From assembly GCA_023433985.1 (NCBI GenBank), contig JAEYTN010000245.1, forward strand, positions 1 to 16,210: 16,210 bases of DNA. The letters are read 5' to 3'. This stretch comes from Pseudomonadota bacterium (GTDB taxonomy: Bacteria; Pseudomonadota; Alphaproteobacteria; Rhizobiales; Devosiaceae). The notes beneath the pieces were generated by a model. That model worked only from the letters and a program-made list of their open reading frames with translations. It was not told where the DNA came from and ran no database searches. Numbering within the stretch: position 1 is the stretch's first letter; every line of letters starts with the position of its first letter. Of the stretch, positions 1 to 14,735 are shown one piece after another. Both the position numbers and the translations under genes were made by a program.

Positions 1-778
1 AGCGGAAGCCGATCATCAGCGCCAGCCCGATCGCCATCGCCGAGTAGCCGGCGAAGTCGAAATAGAGCTGCATCGTGTAGGCGAGGGCGCCCAGCCAGCT
101 CTCTGCCAGCGTCGGGTTCGGCACCGAGAACATGGCGTCGGCGAGCGGGGCCACGCTGTCGGCAATCAGCACCTTCATGCTGAGGCCGATCAGGAACCGT
201 TGCCAGCCGGCGTTGAACAGCTCCCAGCTGTGCGTGCGCTTCTCGAACTGCGGCGCGAGGTCCTTGTAGCGGAGGATCGGCCCGGCCACGAGCTGCGGGA
301 ACAGCGCCAGGAACGCCGCGAAATCGATGATGTTGGGCGATACCTTCGCGTCGCCCCGGTACACGTCCACCAGGTAGCTGATCGAGTGGAACACGTAGAA
401 CGAGATGCCGATCGGCAGCAGCAGCTGCCAGTGAATGCCGAGCGCCTCCGGCGTCGTCCCCCACAGCATCGCAAAACTGTCGATGAAGAAGTTGAGGTAC
501 TTGAACGTCCCCAGCACCGCGAGGTGCCCGACGATACCGATGCCGACGAACAGCTTGGCGCGCGGCGTACCGGCATGTTTCTGCACCAGCAGCGACCACA
601 CATACCCCCACAGCGTATTGCCCACGAGCAGCAGCAGGAAGTCGAAGCGCCACCAGCCGTAGAACAGGTAGCTCTCGATCAGCAGCGTGATGTTCCGGTA
701 CTTGTTGGGCGTCAGGTAGTACGCGACCAAAAAGATCGGCAGGAACAGGAACAGGAACGTCTCGGACGAAAAGACCAT
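1..778 (-). CDS. algI: AlgI-like membrane-bound O-acyltransferase (MBOAT), 3' part cut by window edge
   Basis: This is the last gene of the alginate-type operon visible here. It starts with ATG at 778 and stays open to the window edge (259 codons seen; the family is about 500 aa). The N-terminus MVFSSETFLFLFLPIF closely resembles Pseudomonas AlgI. Several hydrophobic segments are visible, plus the MBOAT-typical stretches LPIGISFYVFHSISYLVD (about residues 121-138), FPQLVAGPILRY (160-171) and DFAGYS (241-246). The catalytic His of the family lies further downstream and is outside the window. AlgI takes part in transferring acetyl groups across the inner membrane to the nascent polymer. The ATG shares one base with the TGA of the upstream beta-helix gene (TGATG), which suggests translational coupling. 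Relatives such as DltB or PatA are possible in principle, but the N-terminus and context favour AlgI. Confidence 0.92.
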   Translation of the reverse strand, partial: MVFSSETFLFLFLPIFLVAYYLTPNKYRNITLLIESYLFYGWWRFDFLLLLVGNTLWGYVWSLLVQKHAGTPRAKLFVGIGIVGHLAVLGTFKYLNFFIDSFAMLWGTTPEALGIHWQLLLPIGISFYVFHSISYLVDVYRGDAKVSPNIIDFAAFLALFPQLVAGPILRYKDLAPQFEKRTHSWELFNAGWQRFLIGLSMKVLIADSVAPLADAMFSVPNPTLAESWLGALAYTMQLYFDFAGYSAMAIGLALMIGFR

Positions 779-2301
779 CAGTGGTCCCCCTCGAAGGAAC
801 AGCTGGTGGGGCGCAGCGCCCCGCTTGGGGTGAGCTTGGCGCCGCCGTCGAGCTTCAGCCCGTCGATCACTGCCTCGCCCGTGAGATCGAAGAAGCGGTC
901 GGAGAACTGCACCAGCTCCCCGGCGAACAGTCTCGGCGCCTGCCCGGAAAAGTCGTTCTCGACGAAGCGCAATTGCGCCGTGGTCGAGCCCTTGACCCCC
1001 ACGCGGTTGCCGTCGAGCTCGTTGCTCGCAATCTCGATCCGCCCGTAGTCGGGCTGGTGCGTCACCGAGATGCCGGCATTGCCGTTGTCGTAGAGCCGGT
1101 TCGCGGCCACCGCGACCCCCGCGGAATCCCGCACCGCCAGCCCCGACTGCGCATTCTTGAGCAGCAGGTTGTCGCTCACCGTCACGCAGTCCGCCGATGC
1201 AACGCTCACCCCCGAGCGCTTCGCGTCGGCAATGATGTTGCGCTCGACCGTCAGTTCCGCCGCGCCCGCATCCGCGAACACGCCGTTGAGGCCGGCCCCG
1301 ACCACGAGATTATCCGTAACCGAGACGTTACGCGCCCCGGCCGTCACCTTGATCCCGTGCGCCTGCGCTCCGGCGAGCACGACGTTGCGGTCCGCCACCA
1401 GATCCTCGCCGCTCGACATCAGCACGGCCGGCCCGGAGGCCCCGGCGAACACGTTCCCCGAAATCACCGCATCGCTCGCGCCCATCAGCGCCAGCGTCTT
1501 CACGTTCTCGAACCGGCTGTCGCGCACCACGCTGGGAGCGCCATCGCGGAAGAATCCGCCTTCGATCAGCGTCACCCCGGTCAGCGGCGCAAACAGCCCG
1601 AAGCCCAGCTCCGCAAACCGGGCCCCCTCAGCCGCCAGCGAGCCCGAAAGCGCGATCACCACGAACGGGTTGAACTCCTTGAGCCGCGGGTTCGCCGCGC
1701 CCGTGCCACGCAGCTCTGCGCCCTGCGCCAGCAGCGCCCCGGAGGAGAGCACGAACGCCCCCGCCTCGCGGTCGAGCAGCAACCTCTCGCCCGGCTGCAG
1801 GAACAGGCTCGCCCCATTCCACACGGCGATGGAAACATGCGCGACGTAGCCGTACGAAGTCTTCTCGAACAGCTCGCCGTGGCCCGCCTGTTGCGCCGCC
1901 TCGGCCACCGCCGCGAGGCTCGCGACCCCGCTCTCGATCATAAGCACTTCGGGCCGCGCCTGCGCCTGCCGGAGCGCCACGTGGTAGTTGGCGCCCGCCT
2001 GCAGCGCGAGCTGGCTCAGCACCAGGTCGATCGGCACGAGGCTGACCTTGGTCTCGCCCGGCGCCGGCCACGTGATCCCCGGTGCGGGCGTGTCGGTCGC
2101 CTCGAACCCCAGCGGCGCAGCCGCCGCCAGCACCTCGCCGGCGGAGCTGCCCTCCCTGGCCATCGCAGCTAGTTCCGCGACGGTTTTCTCGAAAGCGAGG
2201 GTCCGCGCATAGTCGGCCCCGGAGACCGGAATCGTGGCGCCCAGGGGGACGGTTGCGCACACGATCGAAGCCAGCCCTGCGCGGACCCAGACCTTACGCA
2301 T
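778..2301 (-). CDS. AlgG-like secreted parallel beta-helix protein, probable non-catalytic mannuronan epimerase homologue
   Basis: 507 aa. Residues 1-28 look like a Sec signal peptide (MRKVWVRAGLASIVC, cleavage near VSG-AD), so it is probably periplasmic. After an alpha/beta N-terminal part, residues about 210-450 form repeated short turns of the kind N-x-hydrophobic-x-x-G seen in right-handed beta-helices (for example VISGNVFAG, VTDNLVVGAG, VSDNLLLKNAQSG, ANRLYDNGNAG). The segment GERLLLDREAGAFVLSSGAL (171-190) and the NPFVV stretch near 211 match the layout of AlgG. In AlgG a DPH(D/H) motif carries out C5-epimerisation; no DPH tripeptide occurs anywhere here, and the equivalent turn reads AVLMSSGED (292-300). 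His315 in HGIKVT may match a conserved AlgG His. It overlaps the algA stop by 8 nt. Its role could be structural, guarding polymer transit, or an unrecognised activity. Family assignment is fairly sure; lack of activity is inferred. Confidence 0.8.
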   Translation of the reverse strand: MRKVWVRAGLASIVCATVPLGATIPVSGADYARTLAFEKTVAELAAMAREGSSAGEVLAAAAPLGFEATDTPAPGITWPAPGETKVSLVPIDLVLSQLALQAGANYHVALRQAQARPEVLMIESGVASLAAVAEAAQQAGHGELFEKTSYGYVAHVSIAVWNGASLFLQPGERLLLDREAGAFVLSSGALLAQGAELRGTGAANPRLKEFNPFVVIALSGSLAAEGARFAELGFGLFAPLTGVTLIEGGFFRDGAPSVVRDSRFENVKTLALMGASDAVISGNVFAGASGPAVLMSSGEDLVADRNVVLAGAQAHGIKVTAGARNVSVTDNLVVGAGLNGVFADAGAAELTVERNIIADAKRSGVSVASADCVTVSDNLLLKNAQSGLAVRDSAGVAVAANRLYDNGNAGISVTHQPDYGRIEIASNELDGNRVGVKGSTTAQLRFVENDFSGQAPRLFAGELVQFSDRFFDLTGEAVIDGLKLDGGAKLTPSGALRPTSCSFEGDH

Positions 2302-3733
2302 GCTCCCGGCTCCCGTCCGCCGCGACGGTTGCCAGCTCGACGAGCGGCGTAAGGTGTGTCATCGGCCCGTCCACATGGCAGGCGACTTCGATCACCTGCA
2401 TGGGTCCGGTGCCGTCATTGGTCACGTGCGCCGATTGCTCGTGACCGATCTCGAACGTGGCCCCCGCGCGCACTTCGCGCTTGCGGTTGCCGATCACCAG
2501 CGTCCCCTGGCCGGAAGCCACCACCATCATCCGGCGAAACTCGTCGCCGGTCTCGATGGGCAGCGTCGCGCCGGGGTTCACGGTGAGGTGCTTGAGCTGG
2601 TAGCCGGCACCCTGCGCCAGCATGCCCTGCTTGCCGAAATCCGTGGTGCCGAAGGCATGGTCGTCGGCCTCGCGGCGGTTCTGCGCCTTGAGCTCCTCCA
2701 CCACCTTCTTCACGTCCTGGCTCTGGTCCTTGGTGGTGACCAGCAGGGCATCCTCGGTGTCGACCACCACGAGGTTCTCGACTCCGACCACCGCGACGAA
2801 CCGCTTGCTCCCGCGGACATATGAACCGTGCGAGTTCACCATCATCACGTCGCCGGTCACGACGTTGTCGTCCTCGGTCTTGTCGCCGATGGTATGAAAG
2901 GCCGCCCAGGCGCCCACGTCGTCCCAGTCGACATCGGCCGGCGCCAGCGCCACCGACTTGCTCTTTTCGAACACCGCACGCTCGGTCGGCAGGCTCTCGG
3001 CCGAGCTGAAGCTCGTCTCGTGCAGCAGCAGCGCGCCGTCGTCCTGCGTGGCGTCGAGCAGCGAGGCGTTCACCGCCCCGAACGTCACCGGGTCGAACCG
3101 GCGATACTCCTCGATCACCGTGTCGGCCCGCATCAGCGAGATGCCGCTCGCCCAGTAGGCGAGGCCCGTCTCGATCAGCGATTGCGCCGTCTGCGCGTTC
3201 GGCTTCTCGATGAACTTCTCGGCCCGGTGCACGCCCCGGTAGTTCGAGAACTCACCGCCATCCATGATGTAGCCATAGCCGGTCTCGTTGTAGCGCGGCT
3301 TGATCCCGAACGTGACGATCAGCCCGTCGCTCGCCGCCTTAATCGTCTCGCGGACCCGGGCGTTGAGGTCACCGCCGATCACATGGTCGGATGGGCAGAC
3401 GAGGATCAGCGCGTCGGGGTCGGTGCGCGAAGCGAGCAGCGCGGCAGACAGTACGGCCGGGCCTGTGTTTCGGGCCACCGGCTCGGCGATGATGCGGGCG
3501 TTGCGCTGCACGTCGCGTAACTGCCGCCTTACGGTTGTGAGGTGTCCCGCCGCCACCGAAACCAGCGGATCGTGGAACAGGTCGCCGCGATGCCGCTGCA
3601 CCGTCGCCTGGAAGAAGGTGACCGCGCTTTCGGCGTCGATCGGTTGAAACTGCTTGGGCTGCTGGCTGCGGCTCAGTGGCCACAGCCGCGTACCTACGCC
3701 GCCGCAAAGGATGACTGGATGGATAGCGTTCAT
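2294..3733 (-). CDS. algA: Mannose-1-phosphate guanylyltransferase, bifunctional-family AlgA/ManC with degenerate isomerase domain
   Basis: 479 aa, the usual length of bifunctional AlgA/XanB proteins. The N-terminal nucleotidyltransferase is intact: the signature LCGGVGTRLWPLSR (9-22) followed by KQF, CPSDHV (113-118), GIKPRYNETGYGYI (143-156) and FIEKP (174-178). It makes GDP-mannose from mannose-1-phosphate and GTP, feeding AlgD. The C-terminal cupin should be phosphomannose isomerase with a QxHxHRxEHW metal site. After the recognisable TVNPGATL, however, the site reads PIETGDEFRRMMVV (392-405), so the Gln/His/Glu/His ligands are gone; only His436 may remain. Isomerase activity is therefore doubtful and mannose-6-phosphate probably comes from another enzyme. 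Its start overlaps the alg44 stop by 4 nt (ATGA). Its position here, rather than at the operon end, differs from Pseudomonas. Confidence 0.9.
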   Translation of the reverse strand: MNAIHPVILCGGVGTRLWPLSRSQQPKQFQPIDAESAVTFFQATVQRHRGDLFHDPLVSVAAGHLTTVRRQLRDVQRNARIIAEPVARNTGPAVLSAALLASRTDPDALILVCPSDHVIGGDLNARVRETIKAASDGLIVTFGIKPRYNETGYGYIMDGGEFSNYRGVHRAEKFIEKPNAQTAQSLIETGLAYWASGISLMRADTVIEEYRRFDPVTFGAVNASLLDATQDDGALLLHETSFSSAESLPTERAVFEKSKSVALAPADVDWDDVGAWAAFHTIGDKTEDDNVVTGDVMMVNSHGSYVRGSKRFVAVVGVENLVVVDTEDALLVTTKDQSQDVKKVVEELKAQNRREADDHAFGTTDFGKQGMLAQGAGYQLKHLTVNPGATLPIETGDEFRRMMVVASGQGTLVIGNRKREVRAGATFEIGHEQSAHVTNDGTGPMQVIEVACHVDGPMTHLTPLVELATVAADGSREHA

Positions 3734-4845
3734 TTCGGGCCCCCATTGGGCGTTCCAGTGAAGGAGAAGAACCGGCTCACGGCGGCGAGCGGATCGGATT
3801 TGATGAGCACGTCCACAGGCAGCCCCACCTGCGCCACGTCGAGCGGCTGGGTGGGGATCAGGTCGACGGGAATTGCCACCCCGTCGGTCGCGGTGCGGAG
3901 CAGTCCCGGCAGCTCCGCCTTGTCCAGGGCGGCGCTCGTCACCGTCCCGTCAGGCATGTGCACCTCGGCGATGGCGCCGGAGGCGAGCATCTTCAGGCCA
4001 TGTCCGTCGACATTGGCCGACACCACGACAGGTGCATCGGTGGGGGCGACGGTCATCACCGTATCGCCGGCCAGCACGGTGGAGCCGCTCGCAGCGGCCC
4101 CCGGCGCGACCACGCAGTCGCACGGCATCGAAACCGCCAGCACCTCGCCCGAGGTGGTGCGGATCGCGAACGCGATCTCGCCCTTGCCGGCGGCCGGATT
4201 GACGAAATCGAGCTGCCCGGGGCTGATCGCCCGCAGGTCCATCCCCGCCAGCGACACCGTTGCCAGCCCCGTCACCGGAGCCACGAACAGCCGCTCATAG
4301 AGCTTGAGCCCCACGAACCCGACAAGCAGCAGCCCGAGGCCCGCGAACGTGCCCCAGCGCAGCCCCTGTATGACGCCCGCGCGCAGCGACTTCCGGCCCG
4401 GGGCGGCCTCGGCCGTCCGCACGATTTCGACCTTGTCCGCCGCCTGGATCAGCCCGTCGATGCCGACGAGGTCGCCGCCGACATACGAGTTGAGGATGTA
4501 GCGCAACTGCGGCAGGTGCGGGCCGGTCGGCTCGAGGAAGCGCAGCGTCACCGTTCCCGCCTCGGGCGAACCGGCCCCGATCGCCGCGTCCACCGGCAGC
4601 GAGATCGAATAGCCGGGGAGGTTGAAGGCCAGCAGCACCACCTGCACGCGGCCATGCAGCTGCGGGTCGATTAGCCCGGTCGCCTCGGCCCCTACGATCG
4701 ACAGTCCCTGACCCTGGAACGAGCGGCCATTGATCACGACGTTGAACGGAATGCGGATGACCGGATGTTCGCCGTGCCCCGCAAAGTCATGGAAGGGTGC
4801 GCTTCGGCCTGCCGGCTTGTCGATTTCTGCATGCGCTTCGGTCAT
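3730..4845 (-). CDS. alg44: Alg44-like PilZ / membrane-fusion (HlyD-type) polymerase subunit
   Basis: 371 aa, close to the usual Alg44 length. Residues about 26-120 form a cytoplasmic PilZ-like domain, followed by one membrane segment (about 155-172, GTFAGLGLLLVGFVGLKL). The periplasmic part (about 175-355) resembles a membrane-fusion domain, with a PCDCVVAPGAAASGSTVLAGD hairpin region typical of lipoyl/HlyD folds. In Pseudomonas, Alg44 partners Alg8 and c-di-GMP bound to its PilZ domain switches polymerisation on, using an RxxxR and a D/NxSxxG motif. Here the first motif reads H27-P-V-I-R31 and the second region reads LSIVGAEATG, so several ligand residues are missing. The gene lies 12 nt after alg8 and overlaps algA, which supports the assignment. 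It is probably still the structural partner of Alg8, but c-di-GMP control is uncertain. Confidence 0.85.
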   Translation of the reverse strand: MTEAHAEIDKPAGRSAPFHDFAGHGEHPVIRIPFNVVINGRSFQGQGLSIVGAEATGLIDPQLHGRVQVVLLAFNLPGYSISLPVDAAIGAGSPEAGTVTLRFLEPTGPHLPQLRYILNSYVGGDLVGIDGLIQAADKVEIVRTAEAAPGRKSLRAGVIQGLRWGTFAGLGLLLVGFVGLKLYERLFVAPVTGLATVSLAGMDLRAISPGQLDFVNPAAGKGEIAFAIRTTSGEVLAVSMPCDCVVAPGAAASGSTVLAGDTVMTVAPTDAPVVVSANVDGHGLKMLASGAIAEVHMPDGTVTSAALDKAELPGLLRTATDGVAIPVDLIPTQPLDVAQVGLPVDVLIKSDPLAAVSRFFSFTGTPNGGPK

Positions 4846-4857
4846 TGGCTCTGGCCC

Positions 4858-6342
4858 TCAGTTGGCATGGACGGGGAGGGGGCTCAGCAGCCCCGTGGCA
4901 AAGATCACGCCGGCCACCAGCAGCCCGAGAGCGAGCAGGTGCATGTAGCTGGAGGAGACGGCGCGGAGGCGCCCAGCCGACCCGGCCCCGCGGGCAAGGC
5001 TGGTGGCCTGTCGGGTCCAGCGCTGCCGGTCGAGGCGGAACATGACCGAGGTCTTGATCGCCGCGCCGAAGAGCTGGCCGAAATAGAGCAGGAACGGGTA
5101 GGTGATCGGGAACGGCCCGCGGAACGTCGCCAGCAGCCAGCAATAGGCGTACCGGGTCGCCATCACCCAGGCGACATAGGCCACCGCGATCGGCGGATCG
5201 ACGAATACCGAGAACAGCGCAATCCCCACCGGCGCCGTCAGCGTCGTCCACATCGAGACGCGCTGGTCGAGGATCGACCACCAGGCGAAGAGCCCGATCT
5301 TCTGCGGCCCCAGCGCCAGCGCCCGGCCATTGGTGCGCAGCATGTTGCCGAACCAGCGGCGCATCAGCGTCACGGCGCTCTCGACGAACCCGTCCTTGGG
5401 CTGCGTCTCCATCGACAGGCAGCGCACGTCGGGCAGGTAGGCCATCTCGTAGCCATGCTTCAGCAGCCAGAACCAGGTCGACTTGTCGTCGCCGGTCAGG
5501 AACTTCACCCGCCCCAGCCGCCAGTGTTCGATATAGTCTTCCTCGATCGCGGCGATGAACTCGGGCCGCGTCGCGAGGTCGGCGCGGAACACCGACATGC
5601 GGCCGGTCAGCGTCAGCACCCGGCGGCTCAGCGCCACCGCCGACATCATCATCTGGCGCTGCGTGAACCTGAGCTTGAACCAGTCGCGGAAGATCGGCGT
5701 GTCTTCGATATCCGCCGCTTCGTCCGTGGTGAGCGCCCCCACCTTGCCGCTCGTGAAGAACGGCGCCGCGCGTTCGACGATATCGACCGGGATCTGCGTG
5801 TCCCCGTCGATCAGCAGCACCACGTCGCCGCCGCTGGGGTACCGCCGCGCGATGGAGCGCAGCGATGTGGCGAGCGCGTCGCGCTTGCCGGTGCCCTCGA
5901 TCCGGTCGATCACCACTTCCACGGTGTCGACGCCGTCGAGCACCTGCGCCGCGACCGTACGGATCAGCCTCTCGTCCGCCGCCTCCACAACCGAGGCCAC
6001 CACCGTCGCGCCGCCACGCGATTGCCGCGCCGCGCGGAAGATCGAACGATAGACCCGCGCCGAGATTTCGGCGTCGATCTTGTAGCTCGTGGCGAGGAAG
6101 AACGCGTGCGCCGGCCGGCGCTCCCGGTAGGCCGCCTCGGCGGCAGCGCGCCGCCGGGGATAGGCCACACGGATGTACAGATGCGCACGGGTGAAGTTCA
6201 CCAGCGCCCAGCCGTAGCGCCACAGCCCGATCACCCCGAGCGTCAGGAACACGCCTGCGCCACCCGAGAAGGCCGAGGCCGGCACCGCGCTCGCAATGGC
6301 GGCGGCGGCGAGAATGTACAGTCCGTGCGCGAAGACGTTCAT
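4858..6342 (-). CDS. alg8: Alg8-like processive glycosyltransferase (mannuronan synthase catalytic subunit)
   Basis: 494 aa inner-membrane GT2 enzyme, the normal size for Alg8. Two hydrophobic segments lie near the N-terminus (about 5-25, 30-48) and several near the C-terminus (about 350-385, 395-420, 465-488). The cytoplasmic catalytic domain between them has the expected signatures: LLIDGDTQIP (DxD-type metal site, DGD at 179-181), TGDD (283-286, probable catalytic base) and LMRRWFGNMLRTNGRALA (from 326), the Q/RxxRW acceptor motif. That last stretch is strikingly like Pseudomonas Alg8. It would polymerise mannuronate from GDP-mannuronate and export the chain. It begins 4 nt after the algD stop. 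Cellulose or hyaluronan synthases share the fold, but the algD and alg44 neighbours and the RWFGNMLRTNGR stretch make Alg8 the best call. Confidence 0.92.
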   Translation of the reverse strand: MNVFAHGLYILAAAAIASAVPASAFSGGAGVFLTLGVIGLWRYGWALVNFTRAHLYIRVAYPRRRAAAEAAYRERRPAHAFFLATSYKIDAEISARVYRSIFRAARQSRGGATVVASVVEAADERLIRTVAAQVLDGVDTVEVVIDRIEGTGKRDALATSLRSIARRYPSGGDVVLLIDGDTQIPVDIVERAAPFFTSGKVGALTTDEAADIEDTPIFRDWFKLRFTQRQMMMSAVALSRRVLTLTGRMSVFRADLATRPEFIAAIEEDYIEHWRLGRVKFLTGDDKSTWFWLLKHGYEMAYLPDVRCLSMETQPKDGFVESAVTLMRRWFGNMLRTNGRALALGPQKIGLFAWWSILDQRVSMWTTLTAPVGIALFSVFVDPPIAVAYVAWVMATRYAYCWLLATFRGPFPITYPFLLYFGQLFGAAIKTSVMFRLDRQRWTRQATSLARGAGSAGRLRAVSSSYMHLLALGLLVAGVIFATGLLSPLPVHAN

Positions 6343-6346
6343 GGGC

Positions 6347-7666
6347 TTACCAGCAGATGCCTTCGTAGGTGCCGTTGGAGCGCAGCGAGGCGTTGATGCG
6401 GGTGAGGTCCACCAGCGAGCGGTACTCGCTCACCGCATTGAGCGGGGCGATGGTCTCCTCGTAGCGATTGCCCACGAGGATCACGTCGGAACTCGAGATC
6501 AGGTCCTCGATCTTGCCGACCAGGCGGTCCGGCAGGTCCGGCACCACATCGTTGCCGCGGCCCATCGCCGATACGCCGCCCTGCACCGCCTGGGTGACGA
6601 ACGGGTCGTAGATGCGCACGTCCATGCCGCGCTTGATCAGCCGGCTCGCCAGCTCCGCCAGCGGGCTCTCGCGCAGGTCGTCGGTGCCGGGCTTGAAGGC
6701 GATGCCGACCAGGCCCACCGTCTTGCCGCCCGAGTTGTGCACCATCTTCTCGGCGCGCTCGATCTGCGCCTCGTTGGCCTTCAGCACCGAGTCGAGCAGC
6801 GGCGACGCCACCCCTTTGGTCTGCGCCAGGTGTTGCAGCGCCCGCACGTCCTTGGGCAGGCACGAGCCCCCGAAGGCGAAGCCGGGCTTCATGAAATAGG
6901 GGGAGATGTTCACCTTGGTGTCGGTGCAGATGAGCTTCATCACCTGCTGCCCGTCGACCCCGGCCGCCTTGGCGATGTTGCCGATCTCGTTGGCGAAGGT
7001 CACCTTCACCGCCCGCCACGAGTTCGAGGCGTACTTCACCGCCTCCGCCGTCCGCAGCGTCACCACGTTCGAGGGCACCGGCATCTGCGCGTTGATCTCG
7101 GTGAGGATCGCCGCCGTCTTGTCTTCCAGCGCCCCGAACACGATCAGGCCGGGGTCGTAGTAGTCCGCGATCGCGGTCGATTCCCGCAGGAACTCCGGGT
7201 AGTACCCGACGCCGAAATCCTGCCCGGCCACCAACCCGCTCGCTTCCTCGAGCGTCGGGATGCACACGTCGTCCATGGTGCCCGGCACGATGGTCGAGCG
7301 GATGATCACGGAGTGGAAGCTCTGCTTCTGCGCCAGCGCCACGCCGATATCGGCGCATACAGCCCGCACATACTTCAGCCCCACCGCGCCGGTGTCGTCG
7401 CTCGGCGTCCCCACGCACACGAAGGTCGCATCGGTGTCGAGCACCGCCTGCTGGCCATCGGTCGTGGCCCGCAGCCTGCCGGACCGGACGGCGCGGGCGA
7501 TGATCTCGTCGAGCCCCTGCTCGACGATGGGAGAGATGCCCGAATTGACCGCGCTCACCTTGGCGGGGTCGACATCGACGGCGATCACCTCGTGGCCGTC
7601 ATCCGCCAAGCAGGCCGCGGAAACGACGCCGACATATCCGATACCGAAGACGCTGATCTTGGCCAC
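6347..7666 (-). CDS. algD: GDP-mannose 6-dehydrogenase
   Basis: 439 aa, matching AlgD (about 436). The Rossmann start is MAKISVFGIGYVGVVSAACL (GxGYVG at 8-13) and the catalytic Cys269 lies in FAFGGSCLPKDVRAL. Further signatures are VCVGTPS (83-89), RSTIVPGT (123-130), PEFLRESTAI (157-166), NEIGNIAKAAGVDG (226-239), FKPGTDDLRESPL (312-324) and the C-terminal EGICW typical of AlgD rather than UDP-glucose dehydrogenases. It oxidises GDP-mannose to GDP-mannuronate with NAD, the committed step. The start is GTG (positions 7666-7664) with a good Shine-Dalgarno AGAGGA about 5 nt upstream. It is the first gene of the minus-strand operon, preceded by a long non-coding region with a possible operator. 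Confidence 0.96.
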   Translation of the reverse strand: MAKISVFGIGYVGVVSAACLADDGHEVIAVDVDPAKVSAVNSGISPIVEQGLDEIIARAVRSGRLRATTDGQQAVLDTDATFVCVGTPSDDTGAVGLKYVRAVCADIGVALAQKQSFHSVIIRSTIVPGTMDDVCIPTLEEASGLVAGQDFGVGYYPEFLRESTAIADYYDPGLIVFGALEDKTAAILTEINAQMPVPSNVVTLRTAEAVKYASNSWRAVKVTFANEIGNIAKAAGVDGQQVMKLICTDTKVNISPYFMKPGFAFGGSCLPKDVRALQHLAQTKGVASPLLDSVLKANEAQIERAEKMVHNSGGKTVGLVGIAFKPGTDDLRESPLAELASRLIKRGMDVRIYDPFVTQAVQGGVSAMGRGNDVVPDLPDRLVGKIEDLISSSDVILVGNRYEETIAPLNAVSEYRSLVDLTRINASLRSNGTYEGICW

Positions 7667-7689
7667 GACAGTCCTCTTTCACCAGTGTG

Positions 7690-7722
7690 AGCAATATTGT
7701 TCCCGCCAAACGGCGAGTTGCT
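7690..7722 (-). promoter_or_regulatory. Possible hairpin in algD leader
   Basis: Just upstream of the algD ribosome-binding site, complementary arms AGCAA (7690-7694) and TTGCT (7718-7722) flank a perfect small stem CGCC-aaac-GGCG. It also holds the palindrome CAATATTG (7692-7699). In the transcript this could fold about 24 nt before the GTG start. The stem is short, so this is only a candidate. Confidence 0.25.
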
Positions 7723-7745
7723 GTAGTTATTTTTAAGTTGCGCGT

Positions 7746-7763
7746 GCGAAACTAGAATTTCGC
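7746..7763. promoter_or_regulatory. 18-bp inverted repeat upstream of algD, candidate operator
   Basis: Perfect 6-bp arms GCGAAA and TTTCGC are separated by CTAGAA, 80-97 nt upstream of the algD start. The site lies beside the only AT-rich stretch of the intergenic region (7727-7739). The size and placement suit a dimeric transcription factor that controls the polysaccharide operon. The protein is unknown. No clear -35/-10 pair could be assigned with confidence. Confidence 0.4.
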
Positions 7764-7791
7764 TGGCCTCGTTACGCTAGGTGCCTGCAAG

Positions 7792-7863
7792 TGACGCTCC
7801 ACCGCTGGAGTCATTTGACGTTGCACCGAGCCCGGCATCTTTGCCGGAGTGACTGAACGTTGC
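7792..7863. repeat. Tandem pair of hairpins with shared 3' tail ACGTTGC
   Basis: The first unit has the stem CTCCA-ccgc-TGGAG (7797-7810), extended by TGA/TCA. The second has CCGGCA-tctt-TGCCGG (7832-7847). Each is followed by a similar tail, TGGAGTCATTTGACGTTGC and CGGAGTGACTGAACGTTGC, which agree at 13 of 19 positions with a period of 39 nt. The ACGTTGC words sit at 7818-7824 and 7857-7863. The stems differ in sequence while the structure is kept, which suggests a structured element or binding array. Strand and function are unknown. Confidence 0.4.
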
Positions 7864-8272
7864 TTGTCCGTTCGATGGTGAAAGCGTGTTCGCTGCGCCT
7901 GACACTGTGAAGGGAGGCGGGACTCATATGTGCCATGCCGCTCGTGCATGGAACGGACAGCCTGCGCAGCGGGCCGCCCCAGAAGTTAATCCCGGGAAGG
8001 CCCCCGAGGCGTGGGCGGTTCGCCGTTCATCAGCCGTTCAGCCGCCCGGCAAATCCGTGGCTCCATTGCGGCAAAATCATGAGGTACGTACCCGGTCTCT
8101 CCCGTCCATGCCCAACGAATGAGCACTCCAGAACGTGTGACAGGCGGACGACAGACAAGGAGCCCTCAGCCCTCAGCACTCGAAATCGCGCCGAATCCCG
8201 GCATCTCGCGAGCTAATTCAGGCGTTTAACTAATGCTGTCTCGCAAGCGCCGGGGATTCGTTAAGCGTTTAC

Positions 8273-8297
8273 CCTCATCCACGGGAACCGGATGAGG
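8273..8297. repeat. Perfect 8-bp inverted repeat upstream of receiver gene
   Basis: The arms CCTCATCC (8273-8280) and GGATGAGG (8290-8297) surround a 9-nt loop. A T4 run (8306-8309) follows nine bases later, too far for a standard intrinsic terminator. The loop and right arm contain GGAAC (8284-8288), which with CTTT at 8305 loosely resembles an EcfG-type stress promoter. It is about 125 nt before the next gene. Confidence 0.35.
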
Positions 8298-8390
8298 CGC
8301 CGCGCTTTTGCCATCCAATCGCGAAAGGATTCACACTGGGCAGAGCAGGGGGATTCGACCTCCGCTCTTAGTGCGCGCAAGGTGGAAGCC

Positions 8391-8438
8391 ATGCGTGTTT
8401 GGGTGAACGAACGGGTCCGATTTGTCAGCAACCGCTAG
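8391..8438 (+). CDS. 15-codon upstream ORF overlapping the receiver gene start
   Basis: ATG at 8391 is preceded by GGTGGAAG about 2-3 nt upstream and encodes MRVWVNERVRFVSNR before TAG at 8436-8438, overlapping the TTG start of the receiver gene in another frame. The receiver gene itself lacks a clear SD, so this leader ORF could deliver ribosomes by coupling. Alternatively a one-base change has split an original longer N-terminus, or it is chance. Confidence 0.3.
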   Translation: MRVWVNERVRFVSNR

Positions 8439-8835
8439 CCGCCCGCTTGTCCTCGTTGTCGAGGACGAACCTATGGTGATGCTGAGCGCCGTCCAGATGT
8501 TCGAGGCCGTAGGCTTCGAAGCCCTGGTGGCCTTCAGCTCCGACGAAGCCATCGCCCACCTCGAAAGCCGCAGCGGCGTCGTGGTGGCCTTCGCAGAATA
8601 CGATGCTCCCGGCACGCTGGATGGAGCCACCTTGGCGCGAACCATCCGCAACCGCTGGCCGACGGTGGAGATCATTGTCGTCTCGCGCCCGCGCGATGCC
8701 ATCGAGGATCTGCCTCTTGGTTCCCGCTATTTCGAGAAGCCCTATACTCAGGCGGCGATCGCCAGGGCCCTCGAGGAACTGGGCCTCATCGGCGACCAGC
8801 CCCGGGCCAAGACTAACCAGCCCCCGCGGGCCTGA
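8422..8835 (+). CDS. Stand-alone receiver-domain protein with Glu at the phospho-acceptor position
   Basis: 137 aa, essentially one REC (CheY-like) domain plus a short disordered tail. The beta1 segment LVLVVEDEP (9-17) gives the acidic pocket. The Ser in VVSRPRD and Lys in YFEKPY (switch Thr/Ser and Lys) are present. In related alphaproteobacterial receivers the phosphorylated Asp lies in a TD-V-D-MP-G-G-MDG pattern; here the stretch reads AFAEYDAPGTLDG, placing Glu59 at that position, though Asp61 could be considered instead. No output domain is present, so it would act through protein contact, constitutively or without phosphorylation. The only start giving a complete domain is TTG 8422; an in-frame stop lies at 8404. 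A short ORF (8391-8438) with its own SD overlaps this start. Confidence 0.8.
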   Translation: MSATASRPLVLVVEDEPMVMLSAVQMFEAVGFEALVAFSSDEAIAHLESRSGVVVAFAEYDAPGTLDGATLARTIRNRWPTVEIIVVSRPRDAIEDLPLGSRYFEKPYTQAAIARALEELGLIGDQPRAKTNQPPRA

Positions 8836-9242: not shown

Positions 9243-9718
9243 ATGCGCCCTTCAATCCGAACCTCGACCTGTCCATCGAGCGCATCATCAAGGCTCCGCG
9301 CAGCACCGTCTGGCACGCCTGGACCGATCCGCAGAGCTTCGCCCAGTGGTGGGTGCCGCACCCCGCGCTCTGCCGTGTCGAGGCCATGGACCTCGTCCCC
9401 GGCGGCGCCCTTGTCACCAGCATCAGCGAGAACGGCGGCGCTTTCGGCCCGCACCTCGATGCCTGCTATCTGGCCGTCGAGCCGGAGCACCGCCTCGTCT
9501 TCACCAACGCCTTGACCGGCGGCTGGCGGCCCGCCGCCGAGCCCTTCATCACCGCCATCGTCACGCTTGCCGACCATCCAGACGGCACGCTCTACACCGC
9601 CCGCGTCATGCACAAGTCCGCCGACGTGCGGAACCACCACGCCGAGCTTGGCTTCTACGATGGTTGGGGTACGGTCGCGACCCAGCTCGCGGCGCTGGTC
9701 GAGGGCAGGGTTCAGTAG
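9239..9718 (+). CDS. SRPBCC-family protein (AHSA1 / activator of Hsp90 ATPase homologue-like)
   Basis: 159 aa. The N-terminal pattern LSIERIIKAPRSTVWHAWTDP followed by FAQWWVPHP is the hallmark of the bacterial AHSA1-like SRPBCC (START-like) fold, which forms a hydrophobic ligand pocket. The C-terminal helix includes GFYDGWGTVATQLAAL, with the GWxxxxxxL pattern of the family. There is no signal peptide, so it is cytoplasmic. It is translationally coupled to the ArsR regulator, which suggests the two respond to or handle the same small molecule; the substrate is not predictable from sequence. Confidence 0.92.
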   Translation: MNAPFNPNLDLSIERIIKAPRSTVWHAWTDPQSFAQWWVPHPALCRVEAMDLVPGGALVTSISENGGAFGPHLDACYLAVEPEHRLVFTNALTGGWRPAAEPFITAIVTLADHPDGTLYTARVMHKSADVRNHHAELGFYDGWGTVATQLAALVEGRVQ

Positions 9719-9739
9719 CACCCGCCTCGCTTGGCGGTG

Positions 9740-9768
9740 CCGGCCGCGTCTGCTATTGCCGGCCGCCT
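9740..9768. repeat. 10-bp direct repeat TGCCGGCCGC
   Basis: Two copies (9740-9749 and 9759-9768), 19 bp apart, each with the palindrome GCCGGC, lie between the SRPBCC gene stop and the WcbI-like gene. Half-turn-type spacing of near two helical turns could fit a regulator site, but GC-rich chance similarity is equally likely. Confidence 0.25.
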
Positions 9769-9789
9769 GTCACGAGCGAAGGCCGGTCT

Positions 9790-10590
9790 ATGCGTGTTCT
9801 GTTCTACGGCGGTTGCCACGCCACCGCGCTCGAGAAGCTCTTCCGGGCCACTGCCGCCGGGTCCCACCAGTTCAGCAGCCTGCAGAACTACGAGCTGATC
9901 AACGCCGGCACCCCGTTCCCCTATGACCGGCTGACGCGCTACGACGCCGTCGTCTATTCCCCGATCCGCAACAAGGACGAGTGGAACACCGAGCACCTGG
10001 TTGAGCGCTGCGCTGCGCTCGGCATTCCCACCGTCTGCTTCGCGTGGCTGCAGTGGAACGGCTACTTCCCCGACGTGATGAAGCTCGACCGGGCCCCGCA
10101 CATCTGGGGCTACCGCCGCCTTGCCGACCGGGCCGCCGAAGGCGCCACCTTTTCCCAGCTGCTCGCGGATGCTCGCGATCCCGCCGCGTTCGACCCCGCC
10201 GGCTACGCCGATTGGTCGTTCCGCGCGCTCGAGGAGCACGAGGCCGGCGTCGATGTCCCGATCAGCAGCTTCATCCGCAAGCACTACCGGTCCCAGCGCC
10301 TGTTCTGGACGCCCGACCACCCCACGCTCACGCTCTATACCTATGTGCAGAAGGAGATCGCCCGTCGTCTCGGCATCGGCCTCAAATGGTTCGCCCGCCA
10401 CGACGAGCTCCACCCCGATGCCTTCATCATCCTGCCCGGCGTCGCCGAAGCCCTTGGCCTCCGCTTCACCGGCGAGGAGTACCGGCCCGCGGAGTGGCGC
10501 AAGGGCGTCGGCCTCGAGCCGTTCCTGACGCTCACGCTCGAGCTGTTCGGCGAGACTCGCCCTCAACCGGCCGCGGCGAACGCGTCCTGA
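9790..10590 (+). CDS. WcbI-family polysaccharide biosynthesis protein, putative acyltransferase
   Basis: 266 aa. The start MRVLFYGGCHATALEKLF fits the WcbI domain, where a G-(N/G)-C motif near the N-terminus (here GGCH, 8-11) opens an SGNH-hydrolase-like fold. Later family-like stretches are YDAVVYSPIRN, PHIWGYRRL and the C-terminal HPTLTLYTYVQKEIARRLG (about residues 177-195), with H177 in the DHPT pattern a plausible second catalytic residue. WcbI proteins are known from capsule clusters and are thought to acylate glycans; the exact reaction is not settled. Chosen start ATG 9790; a longer in-frame extension upstream would overlap the SRPBCC gene and lacks protein-like sequence. It stands alone here, though the alg operon is only 2 kb away. 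Confidence 0.75.
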   Translation: MRVLFYGGCHATALEKLFRATAAGSHQFSSLQNYELINAGTPFPYDRLTRYDAVVYSPIRNKDEWNTEHLVERCAALGIPTVCFAWLQWNGYFPDVMKLDRAPHIWGYRRLADRAAEGATFSQLLADARDPAAFDPAGYADWSFRALEEHEAGVDVPISSFIRKHYRSQRLFWTPDHPTLTLYTYVQKEIARRLGIGLKWFARHDELHPDAFIILPGVAEALGLRFTGEEYRPAEWRKGVGLEPFLTLTLELFGETRPQPAAANAS

Positions 10591-11453: not shown

Positions 11454-11527
11454 GGCCACGTGGCGGAGTGGTTACGCAGCGGATTGCAAATCCGTGTATT
11501 CCGGTTCGATTCCGGACGTGGCCTCCA
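11454..11527 (+). tRNA. tRNA-Cys (GCA)
   Basis: Acceptor arms GGCCACG and CGTGGCC pair perfectly, followed by U73 (typical for Cys) and encoded CCA at 11525-11527. The anticodon arm GGATT-GCA-AATCC carries anticodon GCA, and the T arm TCCGG-TTCGATT-CCGGA is standard. Length 74 nt. It is divergent from mobA. Confidence 0.97.
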
Positions 11528-11619
11528 ACTTCCCCTGCCGCCGCGCTTTTGTCACCGGTTGCCCGCGCCACGCACCGGCGCTATCACCGGGCCACCTCAT
11601 GCCAGCCTCGGGGATTACA

Positions 11620-12273
11620 ATGGCCGATTTCGCAACCGCTCGCCGCCGCATGGTCGACAACCAGCTGCGCACCAGCAACGTCACCGATCGCCGGATTCTC
11701 GCCGCCATGGACGAGGTGCCGCGTGAGCGCTTCGTGCCCGAGGAACGCCAGGCGCTGGCCTACGCCGATACCGTCCACAATCTCGGCGCCGGCCGCGCGC
11801 TGCCGTCCCCGGCGCCGTTCGCCAAGCTGGTCCAGCTGGCCGAGGTCGATCCGGCCGACACCGTGCTCGATATCGGGGTCGGCACGGGGTATTCGACCGC
11901 CGTGCTCTCCCGCCTCGCCGCCCAGGTCACCGGGGTCGAAAGCGATCCCGCCCTCGCCACCAGGGCTCGCGACCTCCTCGCTGCACTCGGCGTCGGCAAC
12001 GCCACCATCGCCCAGGGCTCGCTCGACGGCGCCGGCCAGCCCGGCGACTCGTTCGACGTCATCGTTCTTGAGGGCGCGGTGGCCGAGGTCCCCGCGGGCC
12101 TGTTTTCGCTGCTGAGGGATCGTGGCCGGCTCGTGGCGCTGCTGCGGCGTAACGGCGCGGGCGTCGCGCATGTTTATGTCAAATCCGGCGGCGAGGTGGC
12201 CGCGCGGGCTGAGTTCAACACCGCCTTGCCGCCGCTCGCCCCGGCTCCGCGCGAGGAAAGCTTCGTCTTCTGA
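11620..12273 (+). CDS. Protein-L-isoaspartate O-methyltransferase family protein (non-canonical)
   Basis: 217 aa SAM-dependent methyltransferase. It has the PIMT N-terminal helix region (RRRMVDNQLRTSNVTDRRIL then MDEVPRERFVP), SAM motif I VLDIGVGTGYSTAVLSRLA (82-100), the acidic residue ending beta2 (VTGVESDP) and FDVIVLEGAV (145-154). The substrate-binding segment usually read as GxGQTISQP is GAGRALPSPAPF (56-67) here, so true repair of isoaspartate is not assured. The family commonly sits upstream of tolC in rhizobia-like genomes under this name. Start ATG 11620 is preceded by GGGGAT at good spacing; ATG 11599 is an alternative. tRNA-Cys lies just upstream. Confidence 0.85.
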   Translation: MADFATARRRMVDNQLRTSNVTDRRILAAMDEVPRERFVPEERQALAYADTVHNLGAGRALPSPAPFAKLVQLAEVDPADTVLDIGVGTGYSTAVLSRLAAQVTGVESDPALATRARDLLAALGVGNATIAQGSLDGAGQPGDSFDVIVLEGAVAEVPAGLFSLLRDRGRLVALLRRNGAGVAHVYVKSGGEVAARAEFNTALPPLAPAPREESFVF

Positions 12274-12333
12274 CGCCCGGCAACCGGCCGTTTCGTGATA
12301 ACTGACTGGGCGGCCATCACTGTTGCTGCCGAA

Positions 12334-12361
12334 TTACGCGATCCGCAAAAGCAGTGTTAAA
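12334..12361 (+). promoter_or_regulatory. Possible tolC promoter
   Basis: TTACGC (12334-12339) and GTTAAA (12356-12361) are separated by 16 nt in a locally AT-rich stretch. A start near 12369 would fall at the edge of the inverted repeat just downstream. Both boxes are weak matches. Confidence 0.3.
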
Positions 12362-12367
12362 AAATGG

Positions 12368-12389
12368 CAACTCTTGTGAACGAGAGTTG
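12368..12389. promoter_or_regulatory. 22-bp inverted repeat upstream of tolC, candidate operator
   Basis: Perfect 7-bp arms CAACTCT (12368-12374) and AGAGTTG (12383-12389) with an 8-nt spacer. It lies 53-74 nt before the tolC start and just after a candidate promoter. A second short stem GCCCC-(7 nt)-GGGGC (about 12393-12409) follows and could alternatively pair with GGCAC near 12419. This suggests repressor control of the efflux/secretion channel, or a leader structure. Confidence 0.4.
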
Positions 12390-12441
12390 TGTGCCCCATG
12401 TGCCGGGGCGTAGTGTCGGGCACGTGTCGGAGATAGGTTCT

Positions 12442-13803
12442 ATGGGTTATCTGGGGGCAGTGCGGGCGGGCGCCCTTGCCGTCGTGTTGAGTTGCGTGCC
12501 GACGATCGCGCACGCCGAGTCGTTGAAGGAGGCGCTGGCCAGCGCCTACACCAACAACCCCAACATCATGTCCGCGCTGCTGGATGTGAAGTCCACGGCT
12601 GAAGGCATCGCGCTTGCCAAGTCCGGCAAGCTGCCCACCATCGGTATTTCGGCCACGGCCGGCGCCAGCTGGTCTGCCGGCAACCCGCTCGGCGACAGCC
12701 TCGACATCAACTACGGTCAGGTCGGCGCAAGCTACAACCAGACCCTGTTCGACAACTTCCAGACCGAAGCCGAGATCGAGCAGGCGCGTGCCCTCACCGA
12801 ACTCAGCAAATACACGCTGCGCAACCAGGAGCAGAATGTCCTGCTCTCGGTGGTGCAGGCCTATTTCGGCGTCATCCGCGACACCCAGCTGGTGCAGCTG
12901 CGCGCCGACAACATGAGCTTCTTCGATGCCCAGGTCGGTTCCGCGGAGGACCGGCTGCGGCTTGGCGAAGGCACCCGGATCGACGTCTCGCAGGCGCGTA
13001 CCCGGCAGGCTGCGGCGATCGCGTCGTACCAGGCCGCCATCGCCTCGCTGCAGACCAGCCAGGCCAGCTACGAGCGCTGGGTCGGCCACAAGCCGAAGAA
13101 CCTGTCGAGCGACTACAACTTCGGCAAGTCGCTGCCGGGCTCCATCGACTCTGCCATTGCCTCGGCCGAGGAGCGGCATCCGGCGCTGCTTTCCGCTCGG
13201 GCCGCTATCCGCGTCGCGCAGGCCGGCTCCGACGCCGCCAGCGCCGCCTTCGGCCCCAAGCTGAACATGATCGGGCAGCTCTGCGCCATCGGCTGCTTCG
13301 GCCTCGACAATCCCGGCGCCTCCGGCTCGCTGAACTTCCAGCTGACCATCCCGATCTACGCCGGCGGCGCCCTCGGCGCTTCGATCCGCCGCGCCAATAT
13401 CGAGCAGATCAAGTCCGAGGTGGATGCGCTCTCGGCCCGCGACCAGATCCGTGAATCGGTGATCTCCGCCTGGTCCAGCCTGCAGAACTCCTCGGCGCAG
13501 ATCGAATCGGCCCAGTCGGCCGTCGAATCCGGGCAGCTCGTCGTCGAGGGCACGGTGCAGGAGCGCGATGTCGGGCAGAAGACCACGCTCGACGTCCTCA
13601 ACGCCCAGGCCGAACTCACCCAGGCCCGCGAGGGGCTGATCCAGGCCCGCGCCAGCCGGATGATCGCCGCCTTCGCCCTGCTCGCCGCCTCCGGCCGCCT
13701 CTCGGCCGAGGACCTGCGGCTCAATGTCGAGGTCCACTCCGCCGATGGCTACATCGCCAAGGTCGAGGATGTCTGGCAGGAACTGCGTGCCCTCGACGAG
13801 TAA
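12442..13803 (+). CDS. tolC: TolC-family outer membrane channel protein
   Basis: 453 aa, typical for TolC. The signal peptide MGYLGAVRAGALAVVLSC ends near IAHA-ES, giving mature ESLKEALASAYTNNPNIM. Two repeated coiled helix-barrel halves are visible, with motifs VGASYNQTLFDNFQTEAEIEQA and LTIPIYAGGALGASIRRA, and GERLRLGEGTRIDVSQA-like and VQERDVGQKTTLDVLNAQAEL repeats characteristic of the family. It forms the trimeric outer-membrane tunnel for type I secretion and efflux. Start ATG 12442 is chosen for the SD GGAG 9 nt upstream and the immediate signal peptide; the longer start at 12364 would put 26 residues before it. A strong terminator follows. A role in exporting the alg polymer is not implied. 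Confidence 0.95.
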   Translation: MGYLGAVRAGALAVVLSCVPTIAHAESLKEALASAYTNNPNIMSALLDVKSTAEGIALAKSGKLPTIGISATAGASWSAGNPLGDSLDINYGQVGASYNQTLFDNFQTEAEIEQARALTELSKYTLRNQEQNVLLSVVQAYFGVIRDTQLVQLRADNMSFFDAQVGSAEDRLRLGEGTRIDVSQARTRQAAAIASYQAAIASLQTSQASYERWVGHKPKNLSSDYNFGKSLPGSIDSAIASAEERHPALLSARAAIRVAQAGSDAASAAFGPKLNMIGQLCAIGCFGLDNPGASGSLNFQLTIPIYAGGALGASIRRANIEQIKSEVDALSARDQIRESVISAWSSLQNSSAQIESAQSAVESGQLVVEGTVQERDVGQKTTLDVLNAQAELTQAREGLIQARASRMIAAFALLAASGRLSAEDLRLNVEVHSADGYIAKVEDVWQELRALDE

Positions 13804-13823
13804 GCTCGGCGTTACTGAACATT

Positions 13824-13865
13824 CAGGGGCCTGGTCGCAAAGCTGCGGCCGGGCCCCTGTGTTTC
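13824..13865 (+). terminator. Strong intrinsic terminator after tolC
   Basis: Two 16-nt arms (13824-13839 and 13844-13859), CAGGGGCCTGGTCGCA and TGCGGCCGGGCCCCTG, pair fully if two G-U pairs are allowed, around the loop AAGC. A short TGTTT tail follows. It lies 20 nt after the tolC stop and separates tolC from popZ transcription. Confidence 0.8.
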
Positions 13866-13933
13866 GTGGCGCGTGCCGGCTCGGAATGCCGGGAAAACTC
13901 CTGGGGAAGCCGCGAGCGATAGTGGGGTCGCGA

Positions 13934-13963
13934 TTCACAAACCGCCATTGCTTGGACTAGATT
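13934..13963 (+). promoter_or_regulatory. Possible popZ promoter
   Basis: TTCACA (13934-13939) and TAGATT (13958-13963) are 18 nt apart, after the tolC terminator and about 90 nt before popZ. The match is weak but the terminator means popZ needs its own promoter here. Confidence 0.3.
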
Positions 13964-14052
13964 GGGGGCAGTCGATTCGGCGCGGCGCCGGATCGAGTCC
14001 TTTTCAAGGTCGTTTCTCGGGCCGCGTAAGTGGCGGGTATTGTGAGGCATTG

Positions 14053-14721
14053 ATGAACAAGCCGGCGCCCAAAGAGCCGTCGATGGATGAAATCCTGTCG
14101 TCCATCCGGCAGATCATCGCCGACGACGATGCGAGCGCCGTGCGCAAGCCCGCCGTGCCCCAGCCCGCGCCGCCGCGCAGCTTCGCCCCGGTGCCGCCGC
14201 GTCCCAACGAGCCCGCGACCGAGGCCGAGCCCGAACCGCTGGCCCTGTCCGCCGAGCAGATCCTCCGCGACACCGCCGCCAGCGACGAAGCCGGCAACGG
14301 CATCAGCTTCAGCGAACTGATCGGCAGCGACTCTGCGGCCGCGAGCTTCGTCGACCCCGACGACATCGCCTTCGACAGCGAGCCCGAGCCGGTTGCTCCG
14401 CCGCCGCCGGCACCGCGTCCGGCGCCTGCCTACGAGCGGCCGCGCCCGGCAGCTGTGGCCCAGGCCGCGCCACTCCCCGATCCCCGGCTCACCACCGACA
14501 TGGCGGAACAATTGCTTGAGCCTACGGCACAGTCCGTCATCAACCGCTCCTTCGCCAAACTCTCGAGCCTCTCCACCATCGGCTCCAACGTCACCATCGA
14601 AGAGATGATGCGCGACATGCTGCGCCCGATGCTCAAGGAATGGCTGGACGAGAACCTGCCCGCCGTGGTCGAGCGCATGGTCGAGCAAGAGATCGCCCGC
14701 GTTTCGCGAGGCGGGCGCTAG
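14053..14721 (+). CDS. popZ: Polar organizing protein Z (DUF2497)
   Basis: 222 aa. The N-terminal helix MNKPAPKEPSMDEILSSIRQ then IIADDD is the conserved PopZ partner-binding region. A long Pro/Ala/acid-rich disordered linker follows (about 35-150). The conserved C-terminal DUF2497 part includes LLEPTAQSVINRSFAKLSSL, then MMRDMLRPMLKEWLDENLPA and VVERMVEQEIARVSR (about 155-218), which drives self-assembly. PopZ makes a matrix at the cell pole that anchors chromosome origins and signalling proteins; in Hyphomicrobiales it is linked to polar growth. ATG 14053 has GAGG 5 nt upstream. The pcm/tolC/popZ/valS order is typical of the group. Confidence 0.93.
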   Translation: MNKPAPKEPSMDEILSSIRQIIADDDASAVRKPAVPQPAPPRSFAPVPPRPNEPATEAEPEPLALSAEQILRDTAASDEAGNGISFSELIGSDSAAASFVDPDDIAFDSEPEPVAPPPPAPRPAPAYERPRPAAVAQAAPLPDPRLTTDMAEQLLEPTAQSVINRSFAKLSSLSTIGSNVTIEEMMRDMLRPMLKEWLDENLPAVVERMVEQEIARVSRGGR

Positions 14722-14726: not shown

Positions 14727-14735
14727 TCGACTCCG

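Follow-up and report, generated by a model that had tools for sequence, protein, structure and literature searches.

The closest described systems are the alginate operons of Pseudomonas and Azotobacter, whose gene order we take to be algD-8-44-K-E-G-X-L-I-J-F-A, an order seen in part among the loci read here. According to the available part of a 2015 review, AlgG is required for passage of the polymer in known alginate producers, Tyr314 and a DPHD motif are features of its active site, and no natural mannuronan-producing organism had been identified (PMC4444821). A 2020 survey of 1733 genomes reports, in its available part, atypical alginate operons from which algKE or modification genes have been lost, in environmental bacteria that include some from the deep sea, and mentions more divergent alg44 and algX clusters (PMC7112194); it may include relatives of the clade described below.

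Here we analyse a 16,210-nucleotide stretch of DNA (contig JAEYTN010000245.1 of assembly GCA_023433985.1; the window, at its full length) that carries an alginate-type operon. Judged from its sequence and that of its relatives, this is probably a mannuronan-type, synthase-dependent exopolysaccharide secretion operon, usually acetylating, that works without C5-epimerisation and without canonical gating by cyclic diguanylate (c-di-GMP). The window and its relatives share with the Pseudomonas and Azotobacter operon AlgD, Alg8, Alg44, AlgA, an AlgG-fold protein and AlgI, to which the relatives add AlgJ, AlgX, AlgF, AlgL and a Sel1 scaffold. They differ in having algA inside the order, in lacking the DPHD motif in AlgG, the c-di-GMP motif in Alg44 and the phosphomannose isomerase (PMI) motif in AlgA, in the failure of our searches of relatives to find AlgE, in the ~910-aa size of the Sel1 protein, and in one additional gene, for a small Sel1-like protein.

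The operon and its recurrence in Alphaproteobacteria

The minus strand of positions 1-7666 holds six open, adjacent open reading frames (ORFs), algD-alg8-alg44-algA-algG-like-algI-like, spanning 7666..2:

6347..7666, minus strand: algD, guanosine diphosphate (GDP)-mannose 6-dehydrogenase; GTG start; PDB match 1mfz
4858..6342, minus strand: alg8, glycosyltransferase family 2 (GT2) mannuronan synthase, a membrane protein; Glyco_tranf_2_3 domain (Pfam)
3730..4845, minus strand: alg44, PilZ - helix - membrane-fusion co-polymerase; PilZ without the aligned RxxxR and DxS
2294..3733, minus strand: algA, mannose-1-phosphate guanylyltransferase; cupin C-terminus without the isomerase (PMI) motif; TIGR01479
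778..2301, minus strand: algG-like, right-handed beta-helix; AlgG fold without the DPHD motif
2..778, minus strand: algI-like, MBOAT O-acetyltransferase, first 259 aa, running off the left window edge; PF03062, E-value 4.8e-12

Genes were identified by searches of Pfam, NCBIfam and the PDB, with Alg44 and the AlgG-like protein assigned by profile and predicted fold. From algD to algI the intergene spacings are +4, +12, -4, -8 and -1 nt, which reproduces exactly the packing (overlaps of 1-8 nt, gaps of 4-12 nt) given in an initial annotation of this DNA. We see no sign of pseudogenes: all frames are open, and the ratio of nonsynonymous to synonymous substitution rates (dN/dS) is 0.04-0.24 across the five genes compared among five Devosia loci. 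The algI-like gene is 88-91% identical in six Devosia-type relatives (L008-L013; L numbers denote individual loci) and 62% identical in a seventh, L014.

To find relatives, we scanned species genomes with an Alg8 profile; this gave 157, and the counts that follow are on the best 80 of the 157, all Alphaproteobacteria by title. The order algD-alg8-alg44-algA-algG recurs in 70 of these 80 loci, across two orders, which confirms that the window operon is real and more than a chance arrangement. The placement of algA where algK-algE would stand between alg44 and algG is thus the usual state among the relatives as well as that of the window, and not the one-genome arrangement that the initial annotation had implied. 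Ten loci were scored as exceptions: seven end at a contig edge, L018 and L046 hold all five genes and by the look of it were scored as exceptions through spurious frames, and the last is L071 (a Cognatishimia metagenome-assembled genome, 19523 bases), where algD-alg8 is followed by AlgX, AlgF, Sel1 and AlgL. The order continues to algI in 63 of the 80 loci, and onward to X1 (AlgJ-like), a ~265-aa protein, AlgX and AlgF in 56. In a sub-group (L060, L064, L067, L069, L080, L084, plasmids L004 and L007, and L131) the AlgG homologue and AlgX are retained, and no algI, X1 or algF was seen.

In an Alg8 tree (37 of 87 clade rows; rooted for drawing only, with a long canonical branch) the window type formed one side of a single branch with support of 100/100 over 37 rows, apart from six canonical rows and four rows of a second alphaproteobacterial cluster type, here type B. 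The relatives and this tree place the source near Devosia (Hyphomicrobiales), bearing out the view of the locus as an alginate-type operon with altered gene content. Within the Devosia ZB163 genus group an Alg8 match was found in 9 of 19 genomes, one of which (L120, 49%) falls beside a type-B row in the tree; in the whole class, 22 of 385 genomes had an Alg8 match at an E-value of 1e-100, counting any cluster type.

The enzymes of precursor supply and polymerisation look intact. AlgD matched GDP-mannose dehydrogenase 1mfz with an E-value of 1.8e-130, the next chain being a uridine diphosphate (UDP)-glucose dehydrogenase at 6.8e-77, and C268 (control-row numbering), presumably the catalytic cysteine, is retained in 82/82 clade rows. 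Likewise, D190, D192, D297, D298, R341 and W342 of Alg8 (control row), which we take to be catalytic residues, are each present in 87/87 rows. A clade Alg8 of changed sugar specificity, producing a different uronic-acid or hexose polymer, is quite unlikely: AlgA and a true GDP-mannose dehydrogenase stand in the operon, and clade and canonical rows have many invariant Alg8 positions in common. Such a change would fit the distance of clade Alg8 from canonical Alg8 on the tree, the 68 positions (D, E, H, R, K, S, Y, W, C, N, Q or T) that are invariant in the six canonical rows and kept in <20% of the clade, and the mostly neutral sugars reported, in the available part of the source, for the exopolysaccharide of a relative (PMC7892980).

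A decaying or silent locus that makes no product might be suspected from the motif losses in several domains described below and from the lack of any exporter seen. We consider it very improbable given the open frames, the tight spacing, the shared gene order across two orders, dN/dS well below 1 in all five genes tested, the unchanged synthesis residues and the fact that the losses are common to the clade and not scattered. In one relative, a Rhizobium sp. T1473 plasmid (L001:13677-14994), algD lies in two frames, residues 1-52 and 47-439, which reads as a frameshift or a sequencing error.

Motif losses in AlgG, Alg44 and AlgA

As controls we used canonical clusters and the type-B clusters (L005, L006, L132, L133). 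The latter share the algD-alg8-alg44 start with the window type and differ from it in that a DPHD epimerase domain lies inside a ~1250-aa protein and RxxxR is kept in Alg44. Because the AlgG model served to pick the canonical controls, DPHD is to some extent expected in them; six of the 11 genomes were taken in full, with Alg44 and AlgA selected without regard to motif. Ten of the 11 canonical AlgG proteins were aligned (L100, close to L099, was omitted), and type-B L088 and L109 were trimmed around DPHD. The 78 clade AlgG rows comprise the 80 loci with a match, minus L032 (cut) and the type-B L005 and L006, plus L131.

The AlgG-like protein of the window scored 34.1 bits against the NCBI AlgG model NF038177, below its cut-off of 700. 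A profile of the AlgG-like family matched AlgG structures with an E-value of 7e-33, and the AlgG beta-helix is kept in the predicted fold. Compared with AlgG mannuronan C5-epimerase (NF038177; PDB 4nk6, 4ozy), the clade protein lacks equivalents of DPHD, Tyr314 and Arg345. DPHD is present in 11/11 canonical and 4/4 type-B proteins. We took D317 from the title of PDB entry 4nk8 and presume the numbering of His319 and Arg345; at Tyr314, Asp317, His319 and Arg345 the residue is kept in 0, 0, 1 and 1 of the 78 clade rows, against 14/14 aligned controls, in an alignment anchored by the helix Asn and Gly columns directly after the motif. Relocation of DPHD within the protein was rejected, since a search for DPH[DE] matched only L005 and L006. 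For the 21 D/E/H/K/R/Y positions that are invariant in the 14 controls, the best retention in the clade is 46/78. The working epimerase and ordinary alginate of mannuronate plus guluronate that the initial annotation had implied are not supported.

Could the AlgG-like protein still act as a C5-epimerase, or as a lyase, by means of different residues or a displaced site, which would make the product ordinary alginate? The fold is kept, algG is under purifying selection (dN/dS 0.14-0.24 among the Devosia loci), one row of 78 has the His and one the Arg at the catalytic places, and in an alignment of 29 close proteins His315 hardly varies. Against this, Tyr, Asp, His and Arg were lost together, the His315 column holds His in only 27/78 clade rows, and the conserved clade set is limited to Asp450 and Cys372/Cys501, with no further candidate base or acid. 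We regard retained epimerase or lyase activity as unlikely. A role as a channel part fits a protein that has lost its motif and stays under selection, since passage of the polymer depends on AlgG in known producers.

An epimerase encoded elsewhere was also sought. The AlgG family model gave nothing over its cut-off in the relatives' 79 host genomes, whose completeness was not stated, and class-wide a strong AlgG match was present in 2/385 genomes, both with DPHD. The pattern Y-G-x-D-P-H-[DE], which misses variants such as YAIDPHD of L006, occurred in 4/79 genomes, all Rhizobium, in frames of 1229-1348 aa; the family search agrees with this outcome. A separate AlgE-type epimerase was rejected as the source of these matches, as each of the four is a long type-B DPHD protein. 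The names 'mannuronan synthase' and 'poly(beta-D-mannuronate) C5 epimerase' already stand on the relatives' proteins through automatic annotation, and four proteins annotated as mannuronan C5-epimerase (P0125, P0128, P0138, P0139) have alignment rows without DPHD. Automatic C5-epimerase names in these genomes may be wrong.

The window Alg44 had no Pfam or NCBIfam match. Its predicted model has the architecture PilZ, transmembrane segment and membrane-fusion domain, and the N-terminus best matches the Alg44 PilZ domain. Compared with that domain (PDB 4rt0, 4xrn), the clade has lost both c-di-GMP motifs, RxxxR and the DxS of DxSxxG. Numbered on control row L123 (positions 17, 21, 44 and 46), both aligned Arg residues of RxxxR are present together in 0/82 clade rows and one of the two in 3/82, against 6/6 canonical and 4/4 type-B rows, while Asp44 is found in 0/82 and Ser46 in 2/82. 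The clade has new conserved segments, EHPxxxxPF and PTGPHLPQLR. Rows L018, L059 and L081 contain RxxxR close to where it would be looked for; they resemble wrong frames and were kept in the count. The best reading of these alignments is that canonical c-di-GMP gating through the PilZ site has probably been lost in the clade.

AlgA exceeds the cut-off of the GMP_PMI equivalog TIGR01479 (391.8 against 372.95 bits). The isomerase motif, in the definition that we assume for it, is present in 0/79 clade rows and 6/6 canonical rows. A metabolic gap was rejected: in the 11 of 79 host genomes on which isomerase checks were made, 11/11 carry a motif-bearing copy elsewhere, and a type-I PMI was found in 0/11.

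Export, and proposed mechanism and product

The genes to the left of algI are known from relatives' clusters, which stand in for the window's own flank. The whole cluster is visible on Loktanella and Salipiger plasmids (L002, L003). After algI, L003 encodes an ALGX-domain protein, a 272-aa protein, a second ALGX-domain protein, an AlgF-like protein (under the Pfam cut-off; its L002 counterpart is annotated AlgF), a 908-aa Sel1 protein and an alginate lyase. More generally the relatives carry an AlgJ-like protein, the small Sel1-like protein, AlgX, AlgF, the ~910-aa Sel1 protein and AlgL after algI, and the same left-side genes are seen in part in Devosia (L134, L135) and R. tibeticum (L136). 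Acetylation, lyase and scaffold genes thus probably lie beyond the left edge of the window, where the initial annotation had placed, as one possibility, the acetylation and lyase partners. The residues that we take to be catalytic in AlgJ and AlgX are kept in most or all clade rows. In AlgL, examined outside the window in 11 clade rows (e.g. L001-L004, L007, L060), Leu stands at the place of His202 in 11/11 rows and Arg249 and Tyr256 are kept; His202 is retained in 3/3 type-B rows.

We found no AlgE barrel in the two clusters visible from end to end (L002, L003), nor in the genome behind L131. We searched 26 of the 79 host genomes with PF13372 at an E-value of 0.01 (cut-off 25.2 bits): 24 had no match and two had partial matches of 45-47 bits, over the cut-off, against best matches of 256-434 bits in 4/4 canonical control genomes. 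The suggestion that something had been replaced appears right for AlgE in these relatives. Three other candidates for the exporter were considered. The ~910-aa Sel1 protein was rejected as a fused AlgK-AlgE (hhalign probability 95.8 over 151 columns for AlgK, 0.1 for AlgE), as was the ~265-aa protein as a barrel (a weak AlgK-like match of 48.2, AlgE 0.1). The TolC homologue of the window (12364-13803) is an unlikely exporter, as PCMT-TolC-valS matches L012 as a unit; this unit had no match in the available upstream stretches of L008-L011 and L013.

These results bear on whether the locus is simply a Pseudomonas-type operon in a different order, its usual exporter and control lying beyond the left edge. 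The enzyme set is the same, AlgJ, AlgX, AlgF, AlgK-like and AlgL proteins follow in relatives, and the two PF13372 matches could be counted in its favour; it is contradicted by gene order, the motif losses in AlgG, Alg44 and AlgA and the absence of AlgE matches just described speak against it, and we hold it to be highly unlikely.

From gene content and order, predicted folds, motif loss, retention of synthesis residues and purifying selection we infer the following activities, product and regulation for a mannuronan-type operon. AlgA would produce GDP-mannose, which AlgD would oxidise to GDP-mannuronate; Alg8 and Alg44 would polymerise this and pass poly-beta-D-mannuronate to the periplasm. 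The AlgG homologue, no longer an epimerase, would be retained as a non-enzymatic periplasmic channel part that holds and guards the chain. AlgI, in most relatives with AlgJ, AlgX and AlgF encoded to its left, would O-acetylate the chain, the Sel1 proteins would serve as scaffold and the AlgL homologue would remove strays. The synthase would be freed from c-di-GMP at the usual PilZ site, so that control would come from elsewhere, possibly from transcription through a divergent response regulator. The predicted product is mannuronan, usually acetylated, without guluronate. Because such a locus would work like an alginate synthase-secretion system but lacks features that define the canonical operon, we class it as an alphaproteobacterial mannuronan-type operon. 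It is a more tentative step, quite possible and yet short of probable, to see in this clade (Devosia, Rhizobium, Roseibium and many Rhodobacterales) natural producers of guluronate-free, mostly acetylated mannuronan, with AlgG turned into a pure chain holder, a synthase uncoupled from c-di-GMP and outer-membrane export by something other than AlgE.

Several observations weigh against this proposal. A lost motif need not mean lost activity: the available part of one study has the P. aeruginosa AlgL variant H202A inactive in vitro and yet tolerated in vivo (PMC8829089). The four Rhizobium hosts also carry the DPHD epimerase, with strong AlgG-model matches of 285-311 bits, and, as the epimerase search covered the relatives' genomes, an epimerase elsewhere in the window's own genome is possible. 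In comparisons with the window, dN/dS is higher for algG (0.32-0.44) than for the other four genes (0.13-0.25), which fits a freed active site or new role and equally plain relaxed constraint. The loss of the PMI motif is not special to the window-type clade, for the sole type-B AlgA row (L005) also lacks it, and it occurs in no ORF of L005, L006, L132 or L133. In L071, alg44, algA and algG were not found within 19.5 kb despite the presence of algD-alg8. Finally, Yangia sp. ND199, a relative of the strain of L003, makes an exopolysaccharide that contains glucose, fructose and galactose and, in minor amounts, acidic sugars, according to the available part of the report (PMC7892980); in culture the operon may be silent, or its yield may be small.

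If the proposal holds, these bacteria may make unconverted mannuronan in nature, and pure mannuronan is described in the available part of the 2015 review as a useful substrate for tailoring alginates (PMC4444821). The laboratory producers of mannuronan are mutants, in which a disabled AlgG likewise gives unepimerised polymer. The clade may offer a natural experiment that separates AlgG's two roles, as enzyme and as channel part, and an example of an alginate-type synthase from which one lineage has lost the c-di-GMP site. Candidates are Devosia sp. Root413D1 and ZB163, Rhizobium rosettiformans W3, Roseibium sediminicola and Yoonia maritima, probably in culture because their titles carry no metagenome-bin mark. 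Among the open-access matches listed we found no later natural mannuronan producer and no account of this clade, which fits the statement in the initial annotation that such a system is undescribed in Hyphomicrobiales. Three of the papers matched were set aside: 'ALG8' is a strain name in PMC11092380, PMC11974857 concerns algC in Phaeobacter motility, and PMC4432689, in its available part, concerns Pseudomonas AlgG.

Related clusters and flanking genes

Type-B clusters are mixed in content, L005 having AlgX and AlgF and the others AlgL and TPR proteins of ~960-1010 aa, and their unity in the Alg8 tree is weakly supported (79/35). R. tibeticum (L016, L133) carries both a type-B and a window-type cluster, the type-B surroundings being read in L133. 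Two further loci, L129 and L130 (genomes G200 and G196), encode an AlgE-like barrel, AlgX, an AlgL-like protein and an AlgG-like protein without DPHD, and L130 also AlgI, AlgJ and AlgF; alg8 was not found in the stretch read. They may belong to a different polysaccharide, exported and acetylated by an alginate-like set of proteins.

Two features to the right of algD may relate to its control:

7667..8421, no strand: intergenic region between algD and the response regulator, a likely promoter region from the layout
8422..8835, plus strand: single-domain response regulator divergent from algD; PF00072, E-value 2.3e-9; a candidate regulator

In the window, as in L008-L013, the response regulator and algD are divergent. 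Identity is 61-75% in 6 of the 7 Devosia-type loci compared, the seventh (L014) barely extending upstream. In our reading of the alignment, Glu replaces Asp at the phosphoacceptor place in all seven proteins (the window and L008-L013), as if the regulator were locked in a phospho-like state. Response regulators also precede algD in L002 and L003. We take the divergent gene as a hint of how the operon may be controlled, and not as evidence.

Further right, positions 11494-16210 hold PCMT, TolC, DUF2497 and valS; PCMT, TolC and valS stand together in L012 too and are by the look of it ordinary neighbours. Between these and the response regulator, positions 9346-10590 of the plus strand encode a WcbI-like polysaccharide-biosynthesis protein (PF18588), whose start in this frame is uncertain.

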